From contig OMYY01000003.1 in the NCBI GenBank assembly GCA_900315435.1, positions 1 to 64,000 on the forward strand: a DNA stretch of 64,000 bases, in the 5' to 3' direction. Below, piece by piece: positions 20,877 through 24,145 of the stretch (positions within the stretch are counted from its first letter, which is position 1; each line of letters begins with the position of its first letter). The notes beneath the pieces were generated by a model. The model was not told the DNA's origin and made no database searches. It saw only the letters and a list, made by a program, of their open reading frames with translations. A program made the translations under genes and the position numbers. Source of the stretch: an uncultured Spirochaetaceae bacterium (lineage in GTDB: Bacteria > Spirochaetota > Spirochaetia > Sphaerochaetales > Sphaerochaetaceae).

Positions 20877-21653
20877 TCAGCCTTCGCTTCGCGCGACCTC
20901 GCCCGGGGGCAGTTCCTCGCCTAGGCCCCAATCGCTGTTGTCGGTCAGGATGTCGACCCGAGGGTTGTCCCGATAGGCGGGCAAGACGAAGGTCCTGCAT
21001 CGCAGGATGACCCGCTGGTCCGGCTGGATCGGGGCGCTGTTGGCCGTCATCACGTTGACGCAGACCCGTTTGAAGAGGGAAAGCGCTATGTGCAGGTCTT
21101 CCAGCATGCTTTCGGTGCTCTGTCCGGGAAGGCCCATCAGCAGGTTGACCTCGTCGGCATAGCAGGCGATGTCCTCGGGGGTGGGAGAGGAAGACGGAGT
21201 ATCGATTCCCTTGTCCAGGTAGCTCTTCCGGAAAGGGATGTCGAAGGTCTCCACCCCCATCTTGGCCCAGAGCTCGATGCCCCATCCGGCAAAACGTTCC
21301 TTCAGCGGCGCGACCTGGAGCCGGTCCATCCAGTGGAACTCGATGTGGACTTGTCTGATCGCACGCGCATGACAGGTGTCGATGATCGCCTGCATGCTTT
21401 TCTCGTCCAGGTCGGTGAAGCTTCCCGAGTTGATTACCTCGAGGATTCCATAGCGGCCGGTCACGTAGGAGAGCACCTGCTTGTTCAGCCGATAGTTCGC
21501 CTCGGTGTCCGTCGAGGCATCCAGGTGGTAGTCGCAGAAGCGGCAGCGCCGCCACTTGCATCCTGTTCCCCGGAGCATCACGATCTCCCGGGGCAATTTC
21601 TGCCTGATACAGGCGTAGCGGACAAAACCCGTTTCCTTAGTTACCGTTGCCAT
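20877..21653 (-). CDS. Radical SAM-like protein next to a queuosine-precursor transporter (QueL candidate)
   Basis: A 258-residue protein with a cysteine motif near residues 32-40, GTGCKWRRCRFCDYH, spaced CX4CX2C instead of the normal radical SAM CX3CX2C. The rest fits a partial TIM barrel: EVINSGSFTDLD, QVHIEFHWMDRL, ELWAKMGVETFD, EVNLLMGLPGQS. It overlaps the upstream yhhQ-like gene by 17 bp and sits under the same preQ1-like riboswitch. Clostridial QueL, a radical SAM queuine lyase that yields preQ1, is a known salvage enzyme with such neighbours, so this gene is a candidate for that or a related step. The radical SAM assignment is fairly sure; the reaction is inference. Confidence 0.72.
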   Translation of the reverse strand: MATVTKETGFVRYACIRQKLPREIVMLRGTGCKWRRCRFCDYHLDASTDTEANYRLNKQVLSYVTGRYGILEVINSGSFTDLDEKSMQAIIDTCHARAIRQVHIEFHWMDRLQVAPLKERFAGWGIELWAKMGVETFDIPFRKSYLDKGIDTPSSSPTPEDIACYADEVNLLMGLPGQSTESMLEDLHIALSLFKRVCVNVMTANSAPIQPDQRVILRCRTFVLPAYRDNPRVDILTDNSDWGLGEELPPGEVARSEG

Positions 21654-22404
21654 TGGCTTCCTCTGCCGTCTCGTCTTGGTCCGCTTCGGCCACGCGCTTT
21701 CCCGACCGTACCATCCTGGTGTGGTACATCCACCTTGCCAGGTAGACGAAGGGGGTGTCGAGCAGGCTGGTGATGATGAAGATCAGGTAACTGGACCAGA
21801 AGATGCTGGAAAGGGTGGCAAACCCATAGGTGCCCCAGAAGGCGAGCAGGGTGAAGAGCACCGTGTTGATCAGCTGGCTGGCCAGCGTGGAGCCGTTGTT
21901 GCGCACCCACAGGCATTTCCTGGAGTCGCCGAACCATTTGGTGGTCAGCTTCCACCAGGTATGATAGGCCCAGACATCGTGTGCCTGGCTGGCCGCATAG
22001 GCGACCAGGCTTGCCAGCATCATCCTGGGCGTATTGCTGAAGATCGTGCGGATCGAGGGTAGCGCCCAGTCTTGGGCACTGGGAGTGTAGAGCATCCAGG
22101 TCATGGTCAGCAGGATGAAGGTGATGTTGGTGGCGATGCCGATCACTACAGCCCGGTTCGACGCCCGCTTCCCATAGATTTCACTGAGGATGTCGGTAGT
22201 CAGGAAGCTGGCGGCGAACAGCGTGTTGCCCAGTGTCTGTTCCATCCCGAAGGCGCGGATGAGGACCATCACCTCGATATTGGCGGAAATGGTGACGAAG
22301 ACAGTCCAGCCGTACAGGCCGGCCCGGCCGGCGAGCCGGAAGAAGACGATCAGACCAAAAAAGCTGACCAGAAGGGAAACCAGAAGCAAAAGTTCGTTTG
22401 GCAT
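21637..22404 (-). CDS. Queuosine precursor transporter (YhhQ/VUT family, COG1738)
   Basis: A 255-residue integral membrane protein with about six helices. Family features are ANIEVMVLIRAFGMEQTLGNTLFAASFLTTDILSEIYGKRASNRAV and, towards the C terminus, LWVRNNGSTLASQLINTVLFTLLAF. YhhQ-type proteins import preQ0, preQ1 or queuine for tRNA modification. A preQ1-I-like aptamer lies in its leader, and the next gene is a radical SAM protein. GGAG (AAAGGAGCGG) precedes the ATG. The C-terminal tail is hydrophilic and acidic (EADQDETAEEANGN). Confidence 0.88.
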   Translation of the reverse strand: MPNELLLLVSLLVSFFGLIVFFRLAGRAGLYGWTVFVTISANIEVMVLIRAFGMEQTLGNTLFAASFLTTDILSEIYGKRASNRAVVIGIATNITFILLTMTWMLYTPSAQDWALPSIRTIFSNTPRMMLASLVAYAASQAHDVWAYHTWWKLTTKWFGDSRKCLWVRNNGSTLASQLINTVLFTLLAFWGTYGFATLSSIFWSSYLIFIITSLLDTPFVYLARWMYHTRMVRSGKRVAEADQDETAEEANGNGN

Positions 22405-22439
22405 CAGCCGCTCCTTTGCCTTCGATGAACCGGCTGTGT

Positions 22440-22500
22440 CACCGGAGCGAGCGCCCCGTACCCGGTTTTATTTTACAACAGGAAGGTTTATGAACTGTTG
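22440..22500 (-). promoter_or_regulatory. preQ1-I-like riboswitch in the yhhQ leader
   Basis: Minus strand: CAACAG (22500-22495) pairs with CTGTTG (22481-22476) around a 13-nt loop TTCATAAACCTTC. An A-rich tail TAAAATAAAACC then leads to GGG, which can pair with the loop CC to form the H-type pseudoknot of the preQ1-I class. The tail G residues can instead join ACCGG..CCGGT (22466-22440), a competing hairpin that could switch expression. Gene context (COG1738 transporter) is that of known preQ1 riboswitches. Consensus match is by eye only. Confidence 0.68.
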
Positions 22501-22519
22501 GTCGTATGCAAGACGAGTG

Positions 22520-22549
22520 TATCTTGAAAAGAATGGTCCAGCTTGTCAA
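22520..22549 (-). promoter_or_regulatory. Promoter of the yhhQ operon
   Basis: Minus strand: TTGACA (22549-22544), 18-nt spacer, AAGATA (22525-22520). It overlaps the last bases of the GH20 gene and sits about 20 nt before the aptamer, so transcription would begin right at the riboswitch. Confidence 0.5.
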
Positions 22550-24021
22550 GCGGAGGCGCCCCTCCAGGAAAGCACCTTCAGGCCATCCAGTTTGGCATAT
22601 TCCATCGCCATCCGTTCGTCCAGGCTTTCCACGGGCTGGGGGTTCCACAGCCGCTCGGCAATCAGCGCGAGACGTGGAAAGGCGAGGTATTCGGCTTCCC
22701 TTCCGTTTCTCACATACTCGGTCCACAGGTTGGCCTGGCCTCCGAGCAGGTTCTTCCTGCTTTCCTCGTCGAAACCTTCGGAGGGGTCGAAGGTGGCGCA
22801 CTGGGTGAAGGAGCTCACCTTGTGGGGTGCGCCGATTTCCTCAGGGTCGTCCTCGTATTGGTAGTCCAGATAGCAGCCCTTGTCCTTGGGGCACATGATG
22901 ACCTGATGGCCTGCCTTGGCGGCTTTGATGCCTGCCTCGCTGCCCCTCCAGGAGGCGATGATCACCTCCTTGTCCAGAGCGTCGCCCCCGAACTCGAAGA
23001 CTTCGTCCCAGCCGATGGCGCGCCTGCCTGCGGCCTTGACCAGCTTGGCGACCTCGCTGGTGAACCAACCCTGCAGGGCGTCGGCATCGGCGATTCCTTT
23101 CTCCGCCATCAGTTTCCGGCAGCCGGCGTCCGCCTCCCATGCCGCGTGGGGGCACTCGTCGCCGCCGATATGGATGTAGGGACCAGGGAAAAGCCTGCAC
23201 AAGGTGCCGATCGCCGCCTTAAGGAAGGCAAAGACCTCCGCCTTGGCTGGGTTCAACACGGCGGGGAAGATACCCCATCCGCACTCCGGTCTCTGGGGAG
23301 CGTTGAAGCCGAGCTGGGGATAGACGGAGAGCAGGGCGCCGCAGTGGCCTGGCACGTCGATTTCCGGGACGACGGTGACAAAGCGCTGTGCGGCGAAGTC
23401 GACGACCTCACGGATGTCGGCCTCGGTGTAGAATCCGCCATATTCCTTGCCCTGGTGTTCAGGATCGGCCCGCCTGCTCGCGGCCTCGAGTCCGGGGTAC
23501 CCGTCGACCGGAAACCTCCATCCCTGGTCGTCGGTCAGGTGCCAGTGGAAGACGTTCAGATGGTGGAGCGCCGCGGCGTCGATCAGCTTCTCGATTTCCC
23601 CCACGGTGAAGAAATGCCTCGCGCAGTCCAGCATGAAGCCTCTCCACCGATACAGCGGGCTGTCCTCGATGCGGCAGGTGGGAAGCAGTCCATGGCCGGC
23701 AAGATAGAGTTGCCGGATTGTCTGGATGGCTTGGAACATTCCCGCCTTGGAGGAAGCCCTTGCGACCACCTGATCCTTGGTCACCTTCAACTGGTAGCCC
23801 TCCACAGGCAACGCTTCCTTGGCATTGGTGAAATAGAGGTCCTCGCAACCGTCGTTCAGGCCCAGCTGGCTTTCAAGCAACGGTCCGAAGCCTTCGAAGG
23901 GGGGATCCAGACAGTAGGCGGAGCCGAGATGCAGATGGAGCGTGCCGTCGCCCGTCTCGATGGAACGCGCTTCGGGAAGCAGATACTGGCTTGCCGGGGT
24001 GTGGTACTGGAATTGGATCAT
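22546..24021 (-). CDS. GH20 beta-N-acetylhexosaminidase
   Basis: A 491-residue enzyme. The N-terminal domain (to about residue 120) is the alpha/beta GH20b fold, ending YRWRGFMLDCARHFF, the start of the catalytic barrel. HHLNVFHWHLTDDQGWR follows and the catalytic Asp-Glu pair is in YIHIGGDECP near residue 286. It removes GlcNAc or GalNAc from the ends of chitin- or glycoprotein-derived sugars. No signal peptide, so it acts on imported oligosaccharides. ATG 24021 has GGAGG 8 nt upstream. Monocistronic. Confidence 0.93.
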   Translation of the reverse strand: MIQFQYHTPASQYLLPEARSIETGDGTLHLHLGSAYCLDPPFEGFGPLLESQLGLNDGCEDLYFTNAKEALPVEGYQLKVTKDQVVARASSKAGMFQAIQTIRQLYLAGHGLLPTCRIEDSPLYRWRGFMLDCARHFFTVGEIEKLIDAAALHHLNVFHWHLTDDQGWRFPVDGYPGLEAASRRADPEHQGKEYGGFYTEADIREVVDFAAQRFVTVVPEIDVPGHCGALLSVYPQLGFNAPQRPECGWGIFPAVLNPAKAEVFAFLKAAIGTLCRLFPGPYIHIGGDECPHAAWEADAGCRKLMAEKGIADADALQGWFTSEVAKLVKAAGRRAIGWDEVFEFGGDALDKEVIIASWRGSEAGIKAAKAGHQVIMCPKDKGCYLDYQYEDDPEEIGAPHKVSSFTQCATFDPSEGFDEESRKNLLGGQANLWTEYVRNGREAEYLAFPRLALIAERLWNPQPVESLDERMAMEYAKLDGLKVLSWRGASA

Positions 24022-24145
24022 GGTGGTTTCCTCCGGGCTTCTAGTATATCGATGAGGATGCTCGGGAAGCAACGAGTCGGCTGTTCAGGAAAATCGAGAG
24101 AAAAGGATGGGCAGAGTGCTCGGAATGCGCTACAGTACTAGGGCG

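Follow-up and report, generated by a model that had tools for sequence, protein, structure and literature searches.

On the minus strand of the window (the whole stretch of 64,000 nt analysed in this work), a leader of about 140 nt is followed by two overlapping genes, and the locus raises the question of whether these genes form an operon for the salvage of queuosine precursors and whether their leader belongs to the preQ1 riboswitches. The best explanation, to which we assign a probability of about 0.85, is a queuine/preQ1 salvage operon preceded by a riboswitch aptamer of the preQ1-I class, type I. The components of this explanation that were computed directly are the homology of the aptamer, the covariation of its P1 stem, the identities of the genes, the salvage-only gene content of the genome, and the conservation of the leader in a congener.

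Genes of the locus and queuosine genes of the genome

The leader extends from the stop codon of a glycoside hydrolase family 20 glycosidase gene, the upstream hexosaminidase (22546-24072, minus strand; PF00728), to the transporter gene yhhQ. A candidate promoter was read from the sequence at 22521-22549 on the minus strand (TTGACA at 22549-22544, a spacing of 17 nt, and CAAGAT at 22526-22521). Its TTGACA hexamer overlaps the hexosaminidase stop codon and is kept in the congener, where the second hexamer is similar; a consensus scan did not score this candidate as a promoter. The putative ribosome-binding site of yhhQ, AAAGGAG, is found at 22411-22417 (minus strand).

By comparison with family models, the first gene (21637-22404, minus strand; 255 aa) is a queuosine-precursor transporter of the QPTR/YhhQ family (COG1738), as the preliminary description had named it: its product scores above the cut-offs of both PF02592 (E 2.6e-44) and TIGR00697 (175.5 bits against a cut-off of 50.95). 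The second gene (20877-21653, minus strand; 258 aa) overlaps it by exactly the 17 bp noticed at the outset (22404-21637 and 21653-20877). Its radical SAM product had no match in Pfam. In a phmmer comparison it matched PDB entry 6P78, deposited as "Queuine lyase", nearly over its full length (E 3e-38, residues 11-245), and the iron-sulphur motif CX4CX2C, formed by residues C32/C37/C40, is common to the 6P78 chain and invariant in six QueL homologues. Because of this match and the shared motif, the gene is assigned as a QueL homologue, queL, with a predicted activity of converting queuine to preQ1. The enzyme might instead resemble RaSEA and act on tRNA or on another 7-deazapurine, as a low-scoring match to TIGR01210, the model for archaeosine RaSEA (27.6 bits against a cut-off of 212), could suggest. 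However, the solved queuine lyase is the only convincing PDB relative of the protein, queL is linked to a queuosine transporter in both phyla, and the genome has no convincing queC; we consider a RaSEA-like function very improbable.

The preliminary description had tied the salvage reading to tgt and queA and to the lack of de novo genes elsewhere in the genome, and this pattern was recovered among the genes searched (tgt, queA, queH, queC, and queF). In the 2.8-Mb draft, the search detected tgt (505 bits), queA (420 bits), and queH (186 bits), no queF, and no convincing queC, for which all matches stayed below 26 bits and the best (25.3 bits) is taken to be another ATP pyrophosphatase; since the draft is 96.6% complete, the failure to find queC and queF is strong but not absolute evidence that they are missing. 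With queC represented by weak matches only, this is the gene set of indirect queuine salvage. The presence of tgt, queA, and queH together with the absence of queC and queF implies a need to import preQ1 or queuine, since without QueF preQ0 would be unusable and the cell would require either preQ1 itself or queuine plus QueL. With this operon the cell could scavenge a vitamin-like building block of tRNA that it is apparently unable to make. In the proposed pathway, QPTR would import the precursor (queuine, preQ1, or both), QueL would cut queuine to preQ1, Tgt would insert preQ1 into tRNA, and QueA and QueH would complete queuosine.

The leader and its relation to type I preQ1-I aptamers

The stem of 6 bp, the loop of 13 nt, and the A-rich tail described initially are present at 22500-22461 (minus strand). 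The predicted P1 stem-loop, CAACAG-TTCATAAACCTTC-CTGTTG (22476-22500, minus strand), consists of the arms CAACAG (22500-22495) and CTGTTG (22481-22476) and the loop TTCATAAACCTTC (22494-22482), and is supported by covariation and by the UU/UC pocket motif. The tail TAAAATAAAACCGGG (22461-22475, minus strand) would supply A30-C31 as well as the strand on the 3' side of P2. These elements are located within a 51-nt leader core (22453-22503, minus strand) that is identical in the congener G002, whereas identity between the two genomes is only 50% and 62.5% in the flanks of the core and 88% in the coding DNA of yhhQ.

In an alignment of 37 leaders, compensatory changes were observed at 3 of the 6 P1 pairs, and 99.1% of the cells remain paired; changes on both sides occur in 9 cells, against a mean of 1.1 after shuffling, and the pairing is destroyed when the partner strand is slid. 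In the window leader P1 and its context read CAACAG-UU...UC-CUGUUG; the UU on top of the 5' strand and the UC that leads into the 3' strand are invariant over the same 37 rows. The predicted fold of the leader as a whole has an unremarkable stability (z -0.69), so that conservation and homology, and not the energy of folding, support the leader.

The Rfam preQ1 model gave no match on the window leader at gathering or relaxed thresholds, an outcome that made up one half of a refuting condition in the preliminary description. The RF00522 gathering score of 39 bits is, however, a curated threshold and not a structural feature: the same model aligns end to end to a clostridial homologue (L121) at 26.8 bits, also below the cut-off, which indicates a limit of sensitivity. 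For L155, a leader from a spirochaete whose loop likewise has 13 nt, it reached 19.6 bits. An independent covariance model, R1, built from 38 clostridial queL-yhhQ leaders only, does match the window leader at 22502-22459 (minus strand; 24.0 bits, E 3e-4, R1 E-values being rough), as the sole clear match in the window (the second best scores 8.9 bits) and the one match over the 2.8-Mb genome (E 0.0135). When RF00522 was run over the same genome, it produced two weak matches, C35 and C49, the former of which precedes a substrate-binding-protein-like gene and was judged to be a chance match.

The type I aptamer binds two stacked preQ1 molecules via U6, U7, U16, C17, A30, and C31 (PMC8752633). 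All six bases are found in the window leader and are invariant over the 37 leaders; the AAAAC within the tail is aligned to C31, with the pocket bases A30 and C31 in place. The proposed preQ1-I class is therefore upheld by the R1 match, the invariant pocket bases, and the P1 covariation, and these data point to type I specifically, supporting the assignment of the window leader as a preQ1-I type I aptamer that is expected to bind preQ1. The leader could alternatively be a protein-binding or other regulatory element whose likeness to preQ1 aptamers is a chance combination of a hairpin and an A-rich tail. Such an element would be in keeping with the negative Rfam result, with the unremarkable stability of the fold, and with the lack of a terminator and the unchanged predicted accessibility of the Shine-Dalgarno (SD) sequence. 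Yet a model from another phylum, trained on the same gene pair, finds this leader, its pocket bases do not vary, and comparable leaders are located ahead of yhhQ in the genomes of other spirochaetes; we consider a chance resemblance very improbable.

The pairing of the tail with the loop is where the initial reading has to be revised. The sequence would allow CC in the loop to pair with GG in the tail, but of the two partners only CC is invariant, GG being lost in some related leaders; moreover, in the type I structure (PMC11625349, PMC8752633), the tail base U32 pairs with the loop base A12, located 5' of the CC. A conserved CC/GG pairing is thus not supported, as the tail GG varies and the published partner of the tail is A12, not CC. 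For the ceiling triple C8-A12-U32, the window leader has C8 and A12, but C at position 32, and the ceiling pair may be weak, because position 12 is an A opposite C32. The 13-nt loop and C32 co-occur in all four leaders with a loop of this length (the window and L155, L156, and L163), compared with U32 in 78 of the 79 12-nt loops; the exception, L094, combines G12 with C32 as a compensatory pair. In L155, L156, and L163, which are spirochaete leaders, a loop G could pair with C32.

Since the 13-nt loop and C32 go together, the ceiling of the pocket differs, and the aptamer might be derived from type I but changed, so that in place of two stacked preQ1 it would sense a single preQ1, or else queuine, which is probably what the transporter imports. 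The handling of queuine by the operon is compatible with such a change, but all six bases of both preQ1 sites are kept, and the available part of a preQ1-riboswitch review mentions no queuine-binding member; a changed aptamer is accordingly rated as unlikely. The more specific proposal that the spirochaete aptamers with 13-nt loops and C32 constitute a preQ1-I subtype of their own, which would have a changed pocket, sense queuine or a single preQ1, and be matched to queuine-importing transporters for QueL, is likewise rated as unlikely.

Switching, related loci, and origin

Under the preferred reading, the 5' leader would fold as an H-type pseudoknot with a covarying P1. When preQ1 is plentiful, the tail would be held in P2, and the expression of the transporter and QueL would be expected to fall. 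We infer that preQ1 binds the leader, that it represses the operon, and that a putative platform carries out the switching step, sign and mechanism alike being predictions. The predicted leader fold contains the competing hairpin described initially, in which the G residues of the tail take part. Located 3' of the aptamer, the hairpin CGGGGC-GCTC-GCTCCG (22443-22458, minus strand) overlaps the alternative partner of the tail, differs in the congener in loop bases only, and may have a role in switching. In free-energy folding of the window leader, blocking of the tail left the predicted SD exposure unchanged, which lends no support to a translational on/off model by tail blocking. No intrinsic terminator was found in the window leader, which makes translation control or Rho-dependent termination more likely than attenuation of the clostridial type. 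Of the 65 clostridial leaders with a parsable tail, 61 have an intrinsic terminator after the aptamer, and in 18 of these 61 a complement of the tail is located in the 5' arm or loop of the terminator, against 8.8% for shuffled tails.

These clostridial leaders come from a set of 80 loci with QueL relatives. One of them (L070) belongs to the same-genus genome G002 and has the gene order yhhQ-queL, as in the window; the other 79 are nearly all from Clostridia. Among the latter, yhhQ adjoins queL in 76 loci, in the order queL-yhhQ and with yhhQ genes 54-65% identical to that of the window, and the leader motif AGACAG-TTCGTGACCATC-CTGTCT-..AAACAAAACTAGGG precedes queL in 66.

Several further arrangements were observed. 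In the spirochaete family f26 (L154, L157, L158, L160, L161, L164, and L165), queL is located on the opposite strand and points away from yhhQ and the type I preQ1 motif (near position 1500 of each locus); in several of these loci yhhQ probably has the tail CTAGGAG as its ribosome-binding site, which suggests translational control there. Two spirochaete yhhQ leaders (L029:1448-1491, with an Rfam score of 11.2 bits, and L016 at about 1440-1490) resemble type II preQ1-I, GCGGTCGCAGTTACCCGCCTTAACAAAAC... A second, more distant yhhQ-queL pair, with QueL 33-38% identical, is present in four other genomes of the family to which the window belongs (L035-L038, from G012, G029, G017, and G032), in which R1 found no match. 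One spirochaete genome (G295) contains two near-perfect leaders of the clostridial type, about 70 bits each, of which the one at L150 (G295:C4) precedes a different QPTR paralogue. Finally, a strong type I preQ1 motif (L152:1501-1545, 50 bits) is located upstream of a gene that by tblastn is neither yhhQ nor queL and whose product starts with MKKVGLTTTVPVEVVFAAGCVPVDLNN.

In phylogenetic trees, the QPTR and QueL of the window group with clostridial relatives (support 100/99 and 100/100, respectively), each group including one Treponema locus, and stand apart from the QPTR and QueL of their own family. With an enlarged spirochaete set, the QPTR clade also holds sequences of family f24 (99/99), to which the leaders with 13-nt loops belong. 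Lateral transfer is likely from these groupings. In the congener G001, which has no queL, the QPTR is still the one native to spirochaetes, while G000 and G002 have the new QPTR together with a distant paralogue, which suggests that the new QPTR replaced the native gene.

Comparison with known systems

All parts of this locus belong to known kinds; their form and order here depart slightly from the usual. Like the known type I preQ1-I riboswitches (RF00522; Carnobacterium antarcticus structure, PMC8752633), the window leader possesses a P1 with UU/UC, an A-rich tail, and A30-C31, and is located upstream of yhhQ; it differs in having a 13-nt rather than a 12-nt loop, C32 instead of U32, and an A in place of loop G9, and in escaping the Rfam model. 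Spirochaetota is not among the phyla that PMC11625349 gives for type I. The transporter shares its family with the COG1738 proteins of E. coli and Chlamydia, and its substrate may be preQ1, preQ0, or queuine.

The queK-qrtT-queL operon of Clostridioides difficile (PMC11477304) likewise places a preQ1-I riboswitch before a queuosine-precursor transporter and queL, whereas in the window a QPTR takes the place of the ECF component QrtT, queK is not adjacent, and the order is yhhQ-queL. Further counterparts are the clostridial queL-yhhQ operons (L071-L149), in which both proteins are 50-65% identical to those of the window and the leader motif is alike in 66 loci, but the gene order is reversed and a terminator is present in 61 of 65. 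The locus extends to spirochaetes the queuine-salvage route known from C. difficile, in a simpler module of two genes, QPTR and QueL, that is common in clostridial genomes. What is added here to the known systems is this two-gene form in spirochaetes and Clostridia, a family of clearly homologous leaders that the Rfam preQ1 cut-off misses, and a loop/tail subvariant, for which the number of ligands and the specificity could be measured directly.
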